From Lachnospiraceae bacterium (lineage in GTDB: Bacteria > Bacillota > Clostridia > Lachnospirales > Lachnospiraceae): a DNA stretch of 64,000 nucleotides. Position 1 is the stretch's first letter. The number at the start of each line of letters is the position of its first letter. The notes under the pieces are model-generated. The model was not told the origin of the DNA. It did no database searches and saw nothing but the letters and a program-made list of their open reading frames with translations. Shown here in pieces: positions 6,544-52,922 of the stretch. Both the position numbers and the translations under genes were made by a program. Location: NCBI GenBank assembly GCA_910575255.1, contig CAJTEM010000003.1, positions 62,001-126,000 on the forward strand. The letters run 5' to 3'.

Positions 6544-8409
6544 TCACACCAGACTCGCCGCGCCGATTACCGCCGCATCCTTTCCCAGAGCTGCCGGCTC
6601 CAGATCCGGAATCTCTCCGGATTCTGCCCCAAAGCAGTTCTCCCTCATCATCCTGCGCAGCGGCTCCAGGATCATTCGTTCTCTCTCCCTGCCAAGCCTG
6701 CATACTCCTCCGCCCAGCAGAATCAGCTGCGGGCGGAAAATATTTACAATATTCACCAGGCCGGTTCCCAGCTTCTTCACAAAATCATCCAGTATTTTCC
6801 GCGCACGTTCATCCCCGGCAAGAGCCATAGCAAGCAGCTCCTCAAGAGGCATAGCCGTGCCAAAGACCGCCTTTGTCCTTTTGTCAAGCGCGGTCTCGGA
6901 CACATACGCCTCCAGACATCCCCGCCTGCCGCAGGTACAGACCTCCCCGTCCTCCACGATCACCATATGGCCGAATTCCATTCCGCCTGTTCCCCTGCCG
7001 TCGTAGATTTTCCCCTCCAGAATCACTCCGCCGCCCACGCCGGCGCCCAGAGTCAGCATAACCACGTCCTGATGATCCCGTCCGGCGCCGACTAAAGCCT
7101 CCCCCAACGCCGCACAGTCCGCGTCATTGGCAGCCCTTACCGGCACAGGCAAAGATTCGCTCATTCTTTTCGTCAGTTCTACCTCTTTCCAGCAGATATT
7201 ATTGGAATACCGCACGATTCCCCGTCTCCGGTCTACCGTCCCGGCGACTCCCACGCCCACGCCGGCACAGCGATCCATGGGAATCTCTTCCTGCGCCAGC
7301 AGCCCGGATATCTCCTTTGCCGTCTCCGCAATCACTGCCGCGGCTCCCTTCTCCTTCCGGGTTGGGATGGTTTTTACAGCAAGGATCTTTTGATGTTCAT
7401 CCACCAGTCCGATACGGATCTCTTTCCCGCTTATCCATGCGCCCACACGTACAGAGCCTGCCTTTTCCCGAATGGTGGTGATCAGCACGTCGCAGCTTCC
7501 CTCGATCTCATAGGCCCCGCTGCCTGCTGCCAGAAAAAAGCTGTCTCCCTTTTTGTACCCCAGCGTTTCTCCTCCGCAGGTGATCTCCCCGGCTCCGTCC
7601 AGAAACAAGAGGCTTACAAAGGACTGGTCTGTCACATTTCCCTCCACCCGCCGTATCATATTGCCATCCAGATTCAGCTTATCCACCGTGAAATAATCGC
7701 AGTCTGCCACATGGGGATAGCTGCTCTTGCTCTTGATAATAGGCACCCGGTTAGTCACTGCCAGAGCCTTCTCGATATGCAGATCCCGCTTTCTCCCATC
7801 CTTTCCCACCCGTCCGTAGTCATAAACCCGGTAAGTGACATTGGAATTCTGCTGAATCTCCGCAATGAGAATATCCCTGCCAATGGCATGAATCGTTCCG
7901 GACTCAATAAAAAGCACATCTCCCTTCTGCACCGGCACAGCATGGAGCACTTCCAGCAGAGTATCCTCCCGGATCCTCTGGGCGAATTCCTCCCTGGATA
8001 TCTCCCTCTGAAAGCCGTAATAAAGGTATGCCTCCTCCCCGGCCTCCATCACATACCACATCTCGGTCTTGCCATACTGTCCCTCATTCTGCAAGGCATA
8101 CCTGTTATCCGGATGAACCTGAATCGACAGATTATCCTTAGCGTCAATAAATTTGGTCAGAATAGGGAAATCCCGGAAACGTCTGCAGTTCTTACCCAGC
8201 ACCTGTTTTCCTTCTGCATCAATATATTCCTGCAGGGTTTTCCCCTTATAAGCTCCGTTTTCGATATAAGAAGGCCCTGCAGGATGGCAGGAAAGCTCCC
8301 ACGTCTCGGCAAGTACTTCCCCCGGATACTCTTTTCCGTATTCCTCCACCAGACGGTGGCCGCCCCACAGATAATCCTTACAGCTGGGTTTCAGCTTTAA
8401 TATACTCAT
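6544..8409 (-). CDS. Mannose-6-phosphate isomerase fused to a ROK sugar kinase
   Basis: The start is ATG at 8409 (MSILKLKPSCKDYLWGG) with GGAAAGGAAA upstream; an in-frame extension to 8481 has no matching signal. Residues 1 to about 315 form a class I ManA: the YLWGG start, the zinc-site QVHPDN, KTEMWYVME, and AIGRDILIAEIQQNSN. From about residue 325 a complete ROK kinase follows: VGVGVAGTVD, the phosphate/sugar loop ANDADCAALGEA, LGAGVGGGVI, and the zinc motif CTCGRRGCLEAY. One polypeptide could thus phosphorylate mannose or glucose and convert mannose-6-phosphate to fructose-6-phosphate. It is the last gene of the mannan operon, 156 bases after the phosphohexomutase. The frame is continuous, so the fusion is not an artefact of reading. 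Sugar specificity of the ROK half is inferred. Confidence 0.9.
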   Translation of the reverse strand: MSILKLKPSCKDYLWGGHRLVEEYGKEYPGEVLAETWELSCHPAGPSYIENGAYKGKTLQEYIDAEGKQVLGKNCRRFRDFPILTKFIDAKDNLSIQVHPDNRYALQNEGQYGKTEMWYVMEAGEEAYLYYGFQREISREEFAQRIREDTLLEVLHAVPVQKGDVLFIESGTIHAIGRDILIAEIQQNSNVTYRVYDYGRVGKDGRKRDLHIEKALAVTNRVPIIKSKSSYPHVADCDYFTVDKLNLDGNMIRRVEGNVTDQSFVSLLFLDGAGEITCGGETLGYKKGDSFFLAAGSGAYEIEGSCDVLITTIREKAGSVRVGAWISGKEIRIGLVDEHQKILAVKTIPTRKEKGAAAVIAETAKEISGLLAQEEIPMDRCAGVGVGVAGTVDRRRGIVRYSNNICWKEVELTKRMSESLPVPVRAANDADCAALGEALVGAGRDHQDVVMLTLGAGVGGGVILEGKIYDGRGTGGMEFGHMVIVEDGEVCTCGRRGCLEAYVSETALDKRTKAVFGTAMPLEELLAMALAGDERARKILDDFVKKLGTGLVNIVNIFRPQLILLGGGVCRLGRERERMILEPLRRMMRENCFGAESGEIPDLEPAALGKDAAVIGAASLV

Positions 8410-29197: not shown

Positions 29198-32100
29198 CTA
29201 TCTTTTCTTTTTCATCATTAAAGCCGCCAGACATCCTGTCGCCGCCAGAGCAATCAGACCTGAAATAACCGGCAATCCATACATGGCCCAGGAAACATTT
29301 CCGGCCGCCTCCGAAGCTGCACTGCCATTATCCACACCGTCTGCCAATCCGCCGTCCGCTGTACTGCCGCCCACGACTTCTGACATGCCGTCCTCTCCTT
29401 CCACATGCTCCGTCACCTCAAATGCCGGCGCCGTTTTTCCGGAAGCCACTGCCCTTATATCATCATAGTACAGCACGCCGCGCACCTCTCCGTTCTCGTC
29501 GATGGCCGGTGAATCCCCGATAGCATTGACCCACAAACCGAATCCGGAGATATCCGATGCTGTCTCCGGGGACAGAGCCCCCCTGCCGTTCTTATCCCGG
29601 AACTCGCCAAAGGGCAGTGTCACCAGCATCGGATCCGTGGCGGACGCATATTCCGGATACTCCTGCAGATATGCCTCATAGGAACCGCCGCTGGCAGTAC
29701 TGATCTGCACCACCGTCTTCTGATTGTTTCCATCCGGCTTCACCCACAGCTGCAGCGCGTCACAATCCGACCAGTCCGCCTCCTTGGGGAACTCACAGCC
29801 CGCCCAGCCGTTGCGCGTCTCCATGTAGTCAAATTTCAGGGCATATTCCCCGCCATGCTTCCATTCGTCCGAGAGGCTGACAGTTAACTCACAGCCGCTG
29901 TCCTTGTTGCTGCTCCAGCTGTCCAGCAAAAGATTCATGAGCCCGGCATAGGACTCAAAATCATCGATCAGCAGCGGGTCATCCGAACGGGGATCGATAT
30001 TGAAGATCACCCGCACCTCCTGCAGCTTCTCGCCGCCGGCATACAGTCCGACCCTTCCGTCTGCCACCTCTCCCAGCTCTGCCAGCGTATCGCCGTCCAG
30101 CACTGCCTCAGCTTTTTTTCCGTTCATTTCTGCCGGAATCACCACCGGTTCTTTGCTGCCCTCCAGCCGGAATTCCACATTTTCTGCTTCTTCATTCAGC
30201 CGCGCCGTTATCGTCTGCTCCTCCAGGATCTGCATCCCGGCCACCGGAGCTGTGATATATCCGGTCACCTTTCCATAGGGCAGGCTCTCCGCCTTTGCCA
30301 GCTTCCCGGCAAGGATATCCTTCATCACCTCTGCCTGATCCTGGGCAAACACGCTGTTCTTATCGTTGTACATCGAGATAAAGGAATCTAAAAGCTCATG
30401 CCCGAACAGCTTTCCGCCCTCCCGTTTCTCCACCACAAAGGGGGAATAATAGCCGCCGCTCCTGGCATAGTTTGACCACAGCATAAAATAGCAGCAGTCA
30501 TATTCCGGCCTGGCCATGATATCCAGTATTTCCGTGTACCACTCCGGCCTCCGGTTCCCGGTCTCCGGGATTCCGCCTGTCTTCATGGACGACATCCCCG
30601 TCTCCGTCACTGCCATCAGCTTCCCGTGCTCCTTGGCAAAGGCATCCGTCAGCTTCAGCGTATTCTCAAAGCTCTGCCGGAAGGTATAGCCCTCCGAATC
30701 CGGCACCGGATTATTGTCATAGGTATCAAACCCTACCAGATCCACATATTCATCTCCCGGATAACGTTCCTCATATTCCTCTAAGCTCGCCGCCTCCGAG
30801 CCAGGCCCGTACAGGTACAGCAGATTGTGAATCCCCTTCTCATCTCTCAGATACTCCACCGTATATTTATAATTACTCTTGTAGGTCTGGGCGTCACAAA
30901 ACGCCTTGCCCCACCAGAACCAGCTTCCCGTATTCTCATGAAGCGGGCGGAACAGCACCGGCCCCTTCACCTGCTTTACATAATCCGCAATCACATCCAG
31001 ATGAGCCTTATATGCCTCGTGAAACGCCCCGCCCGGCAGAATCTGATTCGCACAATTCCCGGTCAGCACATAAGAATCCGCCGGTGTAAAATCAAACCCG
31101 TCATAGCTGTGGGCAAAATTCCCCTCCCGTTTCACAGATGCGGAGAAATTCGGCATATGGCTTGACAGCGTAACAATCGCTCCCCTCTCAATCGCCTCAT
31201 TGGAAAACAATGCCGCCGCCCGGATATTGCCTTCATTGGTATCCGGGATCTCCGCTCCCGGATGTCTTTCATTGTACTTGCCGGCAAACCCGCCAAACAG
31301 CCCGCCGCAGTCCATTCCCACAATCGCTGCCAGGGAACCCGTTACATCCTCCGTATCCGAATCCGACAGCTCTGCCGCGCCCGCCTTCAGCACCGTATCC
31401 TCCATGTGTCCGTAAAGCGTGGCGTCCGACTCCCCGACTGCCTTCAAATATTGATAGAGCGCCACGGTCTGCGCATCCGCATTCGGATCCGCCAGCTTTA
31501 CCTCCTTTGCATAAGCAAAAGAGGTTCCATTCACATTCAGCGCTCCCTCACTGCCAGAAATCACGGTCTTTGTCTTCACCGGCACCGTGGTTTCCTTCAG
31601 AAATTTTTCCTTCTTTACATTGCTCAGTGTGATATTATCCAGCCACACATACCCATGATAATCCGTATATTCGCCAATGATCAGAAGCATCATCTTTCCT
31701 GGTCTCTCCCTCTGCGCATACTTCTCGTCACAGCTCAGGGATACATTCACCAGCTTCAGCCCATCCACATCCTCTGCGGGCGTCTCCATGACCCTGCAGC
31801 TCTGATCTCCGAAAATATTATCGGAAAATGCTTTCACCGCCAGCTGTCCGGTCGTAAAAGCCTCCGGTTCATAATACACATCAAAATTCAGCACCTTATA
31901 AGGAGAAAAATCAATCCCTTCCTCCTCTGCCAGACAGACGCCGGTCTGACTGTAGCTGTTATCCGTATTCAGAGAATAATCCAGGTTCAGCCGCAGCATC
32001 CCCTTTTCTCTGTCATACTCACAGCCCCCGCCGCCCTGAAAACTGTCACCGGACCAGCTGTCATCATACACCCATCCCTGGTCCCCATCCTCAAAATCCC

Positions 32101-32221
32101 ATATCCTTGTCACCTCTCCCGCCTCCGGCTCCCCAAAAGCAGTCACCGAACACACAGGCGTTCCCGCTAAAATCACCGCAGCCGCCAGAGCCACCGCCCC
32201 CCGGCCTCTCTGGCCTCCCAT
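29198..32221 (-). CDS. Secreted GH26 beta-mannanase with carbohydrate-binding modules
   Basis: The preferred start is ATG at 32221 after GAGGAGAGG; a GTG at 32236 is the alternative. The protein of about 1007 residues has a signal peptide and a CBM27-like domain (about 35-200: WDFEDGDQGWVYDDSW through YVWLDNITLSNV). The GH26 barrel (about 250-625) follows, with acid/base Glu429 in FRPLHENTGSWFWWG and nucleophile Glu540 in VTETGMSS. After it come an Ig-like segment and a CBM23-like domain (LLIDDFESYAGLMNLLLDSW through GVLYYDDIRA). A C-terminal membrane helix ends in MMKKKR. The order CBM27-GH26-CBM23 is that of the mannanase of Roseburia intestinalis, from memory. It cuts beta-mannan at the cell surface. 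There is no LPXTG motif, so anchoring is by the helix. Confidence 0.92.
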   Translation of the reverse strand: MGGQRGRGAVALAAAVILAGTPVCSVTAFGEPEAGEVTRIWDFEDGDQGWVYDDSWSGDSFQGGGGCEYDREKGMLRLNLDYSLNTDNSYSQTGVCLAEEEGIDFSPYKVLNFDVYYEPEAFTTGQLAVKAFSDNIFGDQSCRVMETPAEDVDGLKLVNVSLSCDEKYAQRERPGKMMLLIIGEYTDYHGYVWLDNITLSNVKKEKFLKETTVPVKTKTVISGSEGALNVNGTSFAYAKEVKLADPNADAQTVALYQYLKAVGESDATLYGHMEDTVLKAGAAELSDSDTEDVTGSLAAIVGMDCGGLFGGFAGKYNERHPGAEIPDTNEGNIRAAALFSNEAIERGAIVTLSSHMPNFSASVKREGNFAHSYDGFDFTPADSYVLTGNCANQILPGGAFHEAYKAHLDVIADYVKQVKGPVLFRPLHENTGSWFWWGKAFCDAQTYKSNYKYTVEYLRDEKGIHNLLYLYGPGSEAASLEEYEERYPGDEYVDLVGFDTYDNNPVPDSEGYTFRQSFENTLKLTDAFAKEHGKLMAVTETGMSSMKTGGIPETGNRRPEWYTEILDIMARPEYDCCYFMLWSNYARSGGYYSPFVVEKREGGKLFGHELLDSFISMYNDKNSVFAQDQAEVMKDILAGKLAKAESLPYGKVTGYITAPVAGMQILEEQTITARLNEEAENVEFRLEGSKEPVVIPAEMNGKKAEAVLDGDTLAELGEVADGRVGLYAGGEKLQEVRVIFNIDPRSDDPLLIDDFESYAGLMNLLLDSWSSNKDSGCELTVSLSDEWKHGGEYALKFDYMETRNGWAGCEFPKEADWSDCDALQLWVKPDGNNQKTVVQISTASGGSYEAYLQEYPEYASATDPMLVTLPFGEFRDKNGRGALSPETASDISGFGLWVNAIGDSPAIDENGEVRGVLYYDDIRAVASGKTAPAFEVTEHVEGEDGMSEVVGGSTADGGLADGVDNGSAASEAAGNVSWAMYGLPVISGLIALAATGCLAALMMKKKR

Positions 32222-32296
32222 CAATCCTCTCCTCACCCCTGCACACCTCCAAACTTTGTTTATTTGCTTGTTTATCTATCTCCGGGAGGTACGCTC

Positions 32297-32427
32297 CCGC
32301 GAGTCTGCCTTTCTGCTCCGGACCCGCTCTCGCTTCGGTCTGCACGTAGCGGTACTAAGGCGCTTGAAAGACAGCGCCTAAGTGCCGACGTGCAGAGAGA
32401 GTCCGGAGCAGAAAGGCAGACTCGCGG
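32297..32427. repeat. Long palindrome A (27-bp perfect arms, shared core)
   Basis: Arms at 32297-32323 and 32401-32427 are perfect complements. Inside lies a 50-base core (32343-32392) that is itself palindromic, with GGCGCT/AGCGCC around a TGAAAGAC loop. The identical core, inverted, is in palindrome C at 32870-32919, although the outer arms of A and C are unrelated. There is no open reading frame. It lies directly upstream of the GH26 gene. Confidence 0.9.
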
Positions 32428-32478
32428 AAGCTGACATTCGCTGACACTACCAAAACACACAGAAATCTGTTTCCTCTC

Positions 32479-32511
32479 AGTAACAGTTCAGATAACCCCT
32501 GAACTGTTACT
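32479..32511. repeat. 13-bp hairpin
   Basis: AGTAACAGTTCAG and its exact complement flank a seven-base loop. There is no T-run. It sits between long palindromes A and B. Confidence 0.7.
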
Positions 32512-32648
32512 CCTCCCAGCTTTACTTTTTACCAAAACTATGCTTCAAACCATACGCAAAGATCGGGTCCTGAGCAATCCCTTATTCTTCAAACTTCCCG
32601 CCAGTACCCCAAATCACTATCCTATATCCCGGGCATGGCGTTTAACTC

Positions 32649-32814
32649 CTAGTATAACCCGTTTTAAATACCTTTCTGTTTCGGCAAGGATACTTTTCCG
32701 AGAGTGCAGAGGGAAAAGCGGAGGCGTAGTGGGGCTACGTTGAGCATTTTCCCTCTGTGCTATCGGGAAAGCAGACTGGCGAAACGGAAGGTTATTTAAA
32801 ACGGGTTATACTAG
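32649..32814. repeat. Long palindrome B (22-bp perfect outer arms)
   Basis: Outer arms begin CTAGTATAACCCG (32649-32670) and close at 32793-32814. Pairing continues imperfectly through GTTTCG/CGAAAC, then a second stem GCAGAGGGAAAA/ATTTTCCCTCTGTGC, to a small inner stem CGTAG-TGGGG-CTACG. The core differs from that of A and C. Confidence 0.9.
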
Positions 32815-32830
32815 CTCACGGAAATAACCA

Positions 32831-32969
32831 GCTCCGGCGTGGACAGGGTTCTTCGCCGGACCCTCTCCCCACGTCGGCACTTAGGCGCTGTCTTTCAAGC
32901 GCCTTAGTACCGCTACGTGGGGAACGGAGCGAGAGCGCGTCCGGCGAAGAACCCTGTCCACGCCGGAGC
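32831..32969. repeat. Long palindrome C (31-bp perfect arms, core identical to A)
   Basis: Arms at 32831-32861 and 32939-32969 are perfect complements. The 50-base core at 32870-32919 is the exact reverse complement of the core of palindrome A. The sequences between core and arms are also related between A and C (CGCTCTCGCT-like). It lies between the GH26 gene and the ABC permease stop codon. Confidence 0.9.
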
Positions 32970-33002
32970 GTCCCCCTCGCGACTCCCATACAAGCGTACC
33001 AC

Positions 33003-33848
33003 TCACCCTTTGACAGCCCCCGCCGCCATACCTCCGTACACCCGCTTCTGGAACACCAGAAACAGGATCAGAATCGGCGCAATCGTTATCAGCACCCCCG
33101 CACAGATATAATTATACTGATTCCCATAAGGTCCTGTAAATGTATAAAGCGCGGTAGAAATGGTCTTAAGCTTCGGAGCCTGCAGATACAGATTAGAAGC
33201 ATAATACTCATTATAAACACTCACTCCCTTAAGCAGCAGCGAAGTCATGATCGCCGGCTTTAAAAGCGGAAACAGAATCTTGAAAAACACGCCAAAATAC
33301 GTACATCCGTCCATAATCGCTGACTCATCCAGAGACACCGGCAGGTTCTCAAAAAACTGCAGGAATATGTAGATCGAGATGATATCCGTGCCCATCAGCA
33401 CGATCATATATCCATACAGATGATTCACCAGACCCAGAGAATACATAATCTGATAAATGGTAACCTGCATGGCAATGCCCGGAAGAAGCGCCGCAAACAT
33501 GAACAGATTCTGAATCAGTCCCCGCCCCGGGAACTTAAACCGGTTCAATACATATGCCAGCATGGAACCCATAAAGATCGAAGCTGTCAGAACCACCACC
33601 AGCACCAGTCCCGTATTCAGAAATCCCCGCAGCATATTGGCCTTCTGAAAGGCAGTCACAAAATTATCAAAATTCAGGAACGACTGAGGCAAATCCAGAA
33701 CCGAGGTAGCGGCATACTCCTCATTGGTCTTAAATGCAGTCAATATGCACACACAGACCGGAATCAACGCACACAGCGCCGCAAACACCAGTGAGATATA
33801 CTTTAATATTTCAAATACCAGCGAAAGCCCTTTCTTTTTCCTCATCAC
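33003..33848 (-). CDS. ABC sugar permease, MalG/MsmG type
   Basis: The 281-residue protein has six predicted membrane helices (from YISLVFAALCALIPVCVCIL to IAPILILFLVFQKRVYGG). It has the EAA loop of carbohydrate-uptake permeases near residue 170-195 (NLPVSLDESAIMDGCTYFGV, then FFKILFPLLKPA), which contacts the ATPase. The stop-start overlap with the upstream permease is four bases. It is the last gene of the importer, which probably takes up mannooligosaccharides. No ATPase gene is in this operon, so a shared MsmK-type ATPase encoded elsewhere must energise it, as is usual in this family. Substrate is inferred from context. Confidence 0.9.
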   Translation of the reverse strand: MMRKKKGLSLVFEILKYISLVFAALCALIPVCVCILTAFKTNEEYAATSVLDLPQSFLNFDNFVTAFQKANMLRGFLNTGLVLVVVLTASIFMGSMLAYVLNRFKFPGRGLIQNLFMFAALLPGIAMQVTIYQIMYSLGLVNHLYGYMIVLMGTDIISIYIFLQFFENLPVSLDESAIMDGCTYFGVFFKILFPLLKPAIMTSLLLKGVSVYNEYYASNLYLQAPKLKTISTALYTFTGPYGNQYNYICAGVLITIAPILILFLVFQKRVYGGMAAGAVKG

Positions 33849-52358: not shown

Positions 52359-52922
52359 GTTACTTTTCATCGGCAATGTCAGTTAGTTAAGCTGTTCCCG
52401 AAGGTACGCCTTGAAACAAGGGGAGGGCCGCAGCGGGAAATGGTCTGCGGATGTTTCCGGTTTCGAGATCAAGAATTCCTAAAATTTCCGATTTTTGCTA
52501 AAAACGAAACGAAAATTCAAAAACTCGCTACGCTCAAACAGTTTGAATTTTCGTTTCCACGCAAAACTCAGAAATTTAAGGACTTCTAAATCTCTGCAAA
52601 GTCAGCATCCGCAGACCATTTCCCGCTGCGGCCCTCCCCTTGTTCCAAGGCTGGATATCCCGTTCCCTGTTCTTTCAAGGCTGGTAGATACCAGCTCTGG
52701 AAAAAGGGTTCCCCGGATTGCGTTTGCAGGATGCATAGAAACTCTTAGCTCGCAGGAATCTGCGTCAGTGTCAAAAATACAGCTGTCTGAGCGAAGCGAG
52801 TTCTGTATTTTTGACACTGCTTTTAGCAGATTTCTGTAAGCTTAGAGTTTCTGCATCCGAAACCCGCAATCCGGGGAAGCATTTTTCCAGAGCGTACCTT
52901 TCGCCCCCCGTGAAAAGTAATC
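52359..52922. repeat. Composite palindromic element between fba and thrC
   Basis: The segment begins GTTACTTTTCATCGG and ends with the inverted form of TTACTTTTCACGG. Inside are two long palindromes. The first (52409-52650) has outer arms of about 44 bases with a single mismatch, diverged middles, and a 15-base inner stem AACGAAAATTCAAA-type. The second (52695-52892) has arms from CTCTGGAAAAA inward and a perfect inner stem GTGTCAAAAATACAG. The two 20-base loops, AACTCGCTACGCTCAAACAG and (inverted) AACTCGCTTCGCTCAGACAG, differ at two positions. No gene is present. Confidence 0.9.

Follow-up and report, generated by a model that had tools for sequence, protein, structure and literature searches.

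The closest described systems to the elements studied here are the REP, REPIN and BIME sequences, which excerpts of two accounts (PMC3733652; PMC6006769) describe as dispersed, mostly intergenic and non-autonomous palindromes, often arranged as inverted pairs. Template switching acts at quasi-palindromes in E. coli (PMC7202029, in excerpt) and has been proposed to maintain hairpins (PMC8794818, in excerpt). A general question is how long stems can change their letters and still remain perfectly paired. We analysed a window of 64,000 nucleotides, the whole stretch of DNA from a Lachnospiraceae genome that was read, in which three palindromes, A, B and C, lie between the genes of an ABC-transporter permease and a GH26 protein. 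With a probability of about 55%, we read A and C as paired hairpins that belong together to a single copy of a non-autonomous, dispersed Lachnospiraceae family whose coupled arms drift in sequence yet stay paired. The features of the locus are as follows.

32293–32969, no strand assigned: likely composite element consisting of hairpin A, a spacer with nested MITE B, and hairpin C; the bounds are the limits of the paired arms.
32293–32431, minus (modelled GNRA strand): hairpin A; R1 match at 32309–32413, minus, 80.3 bits, with folds and repeats.
32326–32333, minus: side mini-hairpin of A, GC-GAGA-GC, from the sequence and the loop pattern in alignments A1 and A2.
32343–32392, minus: 50-nt core of A, the same as the core of C by sequence comparison.
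32480–32510, no strand assigned: small inverted repeat of 11 bp in the A–C spacer, GTAACAGTTCA...TGAACTGTTAC, outside both main hairpins, from the sequence.
32649–32814, no strand assigned: nested MITE B, 166 bp with CTAG ends, with at least 13 identical genome copies.
32831–32969, plus (modelled GNRA strand): hairpin C; R1 match at 32849–32953, plus, 83.5 bits.
32929–32936, plus: side mini-hairpin of C, GC-GAGA-GC, from the sequence and the loop pattern.
33003–33848, minus: upstream gene, ABC-transporter permease (PF00528, E 5.2e-12).
29198–32236, minus: downstream gene, GH26 protein, called a mannanase in the sequence-only reading (PF02156, E 1.2e-37, and PF03425).

The perfect arms measure 27 bp in A (32297–32323/32401–32427, around a loop of 77 nt), 22 bp in B (32649–32670/32793–32814) and 31 bp in C (32831–32861/32939–32969); in 100 simulated first-order Markov windows of equal length, the longest arm did not exceed 15 bp. 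The 50-nt core of A on the plus strand is that of C on the minus strand without a single difference, and both palindromes are thus as the sequence-only reading had described them. That reading had confined the likeness of A and C to the core; the identity of the core stands, but the homology extends over a gapless match of 103 nt at 88% that takes in the conserved side mini-hairpin. Similarity resumes outside the differing arms, so the arms occupy homologous positions. The stem of A continues to 32293–32431 across one C/A cell, which is G-T when read on the opposite strand.

Palindrome B had been taken to share this build with another core, and this part of the reading did not survive. All copies of B scored in its own genome, 13 of 61 candidates and therefore a lower bound, are identical over 166 bp with the arms included, and diverged copies are present elsewhere in the genus. 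No consistent target duplication was seen among the copies. B is a different MITE, separate from the A/C family.

Matches to A were obtained in 15 of 61 related genomes. The exact core pattern occurred in 8 of the 24 genomes of the genus, with a maximum of 38 copies in G020, and its reversed-pattern control had no match in these 24 genomes. A scan of GTDB contigs matched at least 117 stretches; among the 80 matches listed, 37 titles say Lachnospiraceae, and 16 further titles name genera that we take to be Lachnospiraceae. Of 398 genomes spread over the phylum, a covariance model found the element in 5, four of which (the source genome included) are from the same bacterial family and one from elsewhere. 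One copy lies in Roseburia inulinivorans (L125). The A/C core family is common in Lachnospiraceae. The phages and plasmids searched gave no match and a single viral contig matched, and a phage or plasmid origin was set aside. A known RNA family was also rejected, as Rfam yielded only sub-threshold matches for A–C in the window region and no convincing match at 18 other loci, where the hits were a T-box adjoining an element and two microRNA matches below threshold. The T-box leader (L314, 246–519) scores 93.8 against a Rfam gathering score of 93 and adjoins an element copy. Literature searches, some of them for the sequence letters of the family, retrieved no description, and those listed among the letter matches, 15 of 107 papers, looked unrelated by title. 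The A/C family appears to be an undescribed dispersed structured repeat of common gut bacteria.

Of 162 copies, 147 had enough flank to be tested, and good arm pairing was present in 132 and absent from 15 of them. When the longest perfect run was taken from each of the 122 copies kept for arm measurement (score of at least 12), the median was 18.5 and the range 6–64. Four held-out genomes from the model search, G202, G281, G305 and G420, contributed 33 copies, with self-pairing medians of 16, 13.5, 16 and 13.25 and cross-pairing medians of 5.5, 5.5, 5 and 5, respectively; only 6 of 242 cross scores reached the lowest self score of their own genome. Because the model itself holds five stem pairs, the test was redone with nucleotides outside it. 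Self-pairing then exceeded cross-pairing in three held-out genomes (13.5 vs 5, 10 vs 4, and 9 vs 4.75), and there was no excess in G420 (5.75 vs 5), which therefore does not support self-pairing beyond the model. A common loop with a copy-specific stem is accordingly a property of the family as a whole (self 13.25–16 vs cross 5–5.5), seen outside the model in three of the four genomes.

Genomes differ in how far arms are shared. In G000, G011 and G019 the arms of one copy differ from those of another. Copies in G023 have common arms with small paired changes, and in both G020 and G023 the shared arms vary gradually. The expectation that arms would always be self-complementary and always differ between loci was thus contradicted in part, by the 15 of 147 copies without good arms and the genomes in which loci share them.

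Changes in the two arms are coupled. Among 36 of the 37 copies in G020, 145 cells were paired and 29 unpaired, 11 of the latter at one inner-loop position; the paired changes comprise 77 transitions and 68 transversions, and at several arm positions each of the four Watson-Crick pairs occurs in one or another of the 36 copies. Paired and unpaired cells numbered 33 and 6 in G006 (9 of 16 copies) and 10 and 5 in G023 (17 of 17 copies). Comparison of 37 copies from G020 with 20 from G006 yielded three orthologous loci, with 1/0, 1/0 and 4/1 paired/unpaired changes, the last being the four paired changes and one unpaired change of L232/L256. Between C and its G005 orthologue the count is 8/3, and the four orthologous loci together have 14 paired and 4 unpaired changes. 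These changes demonstrate that the arms are inherited and alter in step at one locus. Some process that couples the arms, as had been postulated from A and C, is needed to explain the counts in G020.

One such process would be purely mutational, with template switching copying one arm onto the other while the stem needs no function and the core is kept for other reasons. It would fit the many transversions among the paired changes and has the precedents in E. coli quasi-palindromes and hairpin maintenance excerpted above (PMC7202029; PMC8794818). Under such a process the arms should drift at the neutral rate, yet at the G020/G006 orthologues divergence looks much greater in the intergenic flanks than in the arms, as judged by eye at few loci. 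MITE B, which is likewise a long palindrome and occurs in these genomes too, also speaks against it, with 14 paired vs 29 unpaired cells among 13 distinct copies; being less coupled, it indicates that long palindromes are not automatically coupled to the extent of the A/C family. We consider a purely mutational origin of the pairing unlikely.

The history of the locus was read from the permease–GH26 junction in nine genomes, including the source genome. Six of them (G004, G008, G010, G012, G013 and G017) have no element, only a short gap or overlap. The G000 junction carries C, B and A, that of G005 has a single hairpin with 21 of 31 positions identical to C in one arm, and that of G014 (L274) retains a small palindrome of outer-arm ends only, which is perhaps a remnant left by internal deletion of the composite or its excision footprint. 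At one G020/G006 orthologous locus, the second hairpin is present in G020 only. Presence and absence between related genomes, with six of nine lacking the element at the A/C junction, demonstrate insertion relative to these genomes, and from it we infer that the family is mobile.

In its strong form, the sequence-only reading would have new arms arise at every insertion, either copied from target DNA or produced through processing of a hairpin intermediate. The mutually different arms of G000, G011 and G019 would agree with this, as would the great length of perfect arms at a few loci, which reaches 64 bp in L142. Against it stand the gradually varying arms shared within G023 and G020, the paired changes made in place at orthologues, the 21/31 identity between the arms of C and G005, and the empty junction sites, where no matching arm was seen by eye. 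The claim that every insertion copies its arms from the target is not supported, given the G023 copies and the orthologues, and we regard arms made at insertion as very improbable.

The L142 hairpin (7655–7760 plus flanks) has perfect arms to about 64 bp, far past the usual stem, and could have undergone a recent fold-back extension.

Paired hairpins recur beyond this locus. The repeated unit of G023, aligned from 15 of 20 copies after dropping three that were short or at contig ends and two with a different right side, is an inverted hairpin pair, about 460 bp long and bounded by end repeats, and 15 of the 16 loci with hairpin 1 also have an inverted hairpin 2. Among 90 of the at least 117 loci, 10 of 13 close pairs (less than 800 bp apart, counted by eye) have this inverted arrangement. 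These two observations make it likely, by analogy, that A and C are two hairpins of one composite non-autonomous element and not independent palindromes. The single hairpin at the G005 site counts against A and C moving as one unit, and copies in G020 are mostly single.

No mobilising enzyme was found for the family among neighbouring genes, at Y1_Tnp loci or in a span between G023 end repeats. No recurrent neighbour emerged when open reading frames from the at least 117 loci were compared all against all; the genes beside the hairpins were those of the host, such as ABC transporters and two-component systems. Y1_Tnp occurs in 11 of the 16 genomes searched and is absent from the hairpin carriers G005, G019 and G025, and no hairpin match lies beside any of 29 Y1 loci; a Y1/RAYT mobiliser as a demonstrated link was therefore rejected, though one may act in trans. 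An autonomous version defined by the G023 end repeats was also discarded, since the 4-kb stretch that inverted end repeats enclose there appears, from its open reading frames, to carry agr-like genes. At this locus (L342, G023:C42:25093–29099), the end repeat is doubled on either side of an apparent agr-like operon, as inverted copies separated by 72 bp. In L153 (3928–5121), two hairpins flank one gene, one per intergenic gap, in a run that reads like panB-panC-panD.

The architecture of the hairpin was derived from two alignments. A1 comprises 70 of the 122 kept copies, with odd-looking rows dropped by eye (L111, L119, L175, L194 and L204 among them), and A2 has 44 complete rows, including extra rows not picked by the exact pattern and counting A and C twice. 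Because searching with an exact pattern predetermined some of the core letters, the uniformity of the core in A1 is in part an ascertainment effect; copies found by model search vary in the core too. Read on the minus strand of A, the order is outer stem, GGACC-type inner pairs, second stem, CGGCACTTA and a variable inner hairpin, followed by TTAGTACCG with an unpaired CT, the return strand, a side mini-hairpin AGC-GNRA-GC and the outer stem. In A1, 17 of 24 predicted pairs have two-sided changes. The core is strand-specific, and the loop of the side mini-hairpin fits GNRA in 68 of 70 rows of A1 and 43 of 44 complete rows of A2. Stable DNA tetraloops are not known to require a purine at the third position, so we lean towards RNA, or a contact with protein, for this loop.

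Such a loop would also fit a transcribed structured RNA, either a cis element or a small RNA, encoded on the modelled strand, with the arms as a closing helix under compensatory selection. Selection of this type would favour G-U over A-C cells, and isolated arm mismatches were scored on the modelled strand as G-T or A-C. The ratio was 30:30 in the first set, 18:8 in the four held-out genomes and 4:1 in extra copies, or 52:39 overall (p 0.21). For core pairs, G-U:A-C was 26:10 in A2, which had been fitted to the model structure, and 38:46 in A1, as summed from the table. A control with 13 distinct tRNAs, a small sample, gave 5 G-T and no A-C. The 18:8 arms and the 26:10 core favour a structured RNA and weaken the argument for a pure DNA process that the absence of strand bias in the first set (30:30) had offered. 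The overall arm ratio and the A1 core count against RNA-type selection, and the lack of significant wobble bias in the arms fits pure template switching. One A1 pair passes from CG (40 rows) to UA (30 rows) with no intermediate, the orientation of the element to neighbouring tandem genes is random (24 same, 26 opposite), no consensus promoter or intrinsic terminator was found in 32200–33050, and the Rfam searches offered no family for A–C. A transcribed RNA, judged from sequence, is possible but not probable. RNA-level selection is possible in the core; none is demonstrated in the arms.

Our findings suggest the following course for the family. Each hairpin consists of an outer stem of about 15–35 bp, free in sequence with its pairing kept, a side mini-hairpin whose loop is of the GNRA type, and a conserved core of the CGGCACTTA...TTAGTACCG type that encloses an inner hairpin of variable sequence. 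Such a unit would spread through a genome singly, as in G020, or as an inverted pair, as in G023, and after insertion both arms alter together, so that copies diverge in arm sequence and remain paired. The coupling would arise from selection for a foldable strand, either RNA or single-stranded DNA, and would be reinforced by template-switch correction of mismatches in replication. Stem selection, template-switch correction or both are the candidates for what keeps the arms paired; we favour the combination, as MITE B is less coupled and correction alone is therefore less likely. It is also conceivable, though rather unlikely, that the unit is a mobile structured element, possibly travelling as folded RNA or single-stranded DNA, whose sequence-free outer stem is rewritten as a unit by drift and subsequent template-switch re-matching. 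If so, a fixed core with a different perfect stem at each locus would preserve, in bacterial genomes, a natural trace of one arm being copied onto the other.

The window contains a second high-copy family. At 52506–52878, two opposite hairpins share a 20-nt loop, AACTCGCTWCGCTCARACAG, and have different arms of 16 and 17 bp. The source genome has 129 occurrences of the loop pattern, frequently in inverted pairs about 260–430 bp apart, and the control has none. Among 25 distinct copies from the first 100 of the 129 places, the arms belong to a small number of types that recur from copy to copy, with a self median of 16 and a cross median of 11. The hairpins of this family also come in pairs with a common loop, and their arms are less diverse than those of the A/C family.

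The A/C family offers many copies per genome, orthologous loci in related species and MITE B for comparison, so selection and template-switch correction can be separated with existing genomes. Compared with structured RNA families, it has the covarying helices, the GNRA-type loop and conserved internal-loop letters, but its copies lie in either orientation to genes and have no convincing Rfam match. It resembles the cases of template-switch maintenance in keeping perfect stems through paired changes; those cases, as excerpted, come from RNA genes of eukaryotes and from reporters in E. coli (PMC8794818; PMC7202029), whereas A and C belong to a mobile bacterial repeat family. Like REP, REPIN and BIME sequences, the family is dispersed, mostly intergenic, non-autonomous and often present as inverted pairs. 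Unlike theirs, each of its hairpins spans 105–140 nt and has a long stem of variable sequence; the searches detected no association with RAYT/Y1, and the GTAG tag of REP and REPIN is not fixed, with GTA, GCA and ATA preceding GCGG at the core, which led us to reject the core as a GTAG REP. With MITEs it shares a short, gene-free, multicopy form with long inverted repeats, and the G023 units end in a shared repeat, ATACCTTNTCGTGC; no target duplication was recognised for the family. The arms of MITEs are common to their copies, as in B, whereas those of the A/C family differ around a conserved loop. The A/C family is a variant of the known dispersed palindromic repeats of the REPIN/MITE kind.
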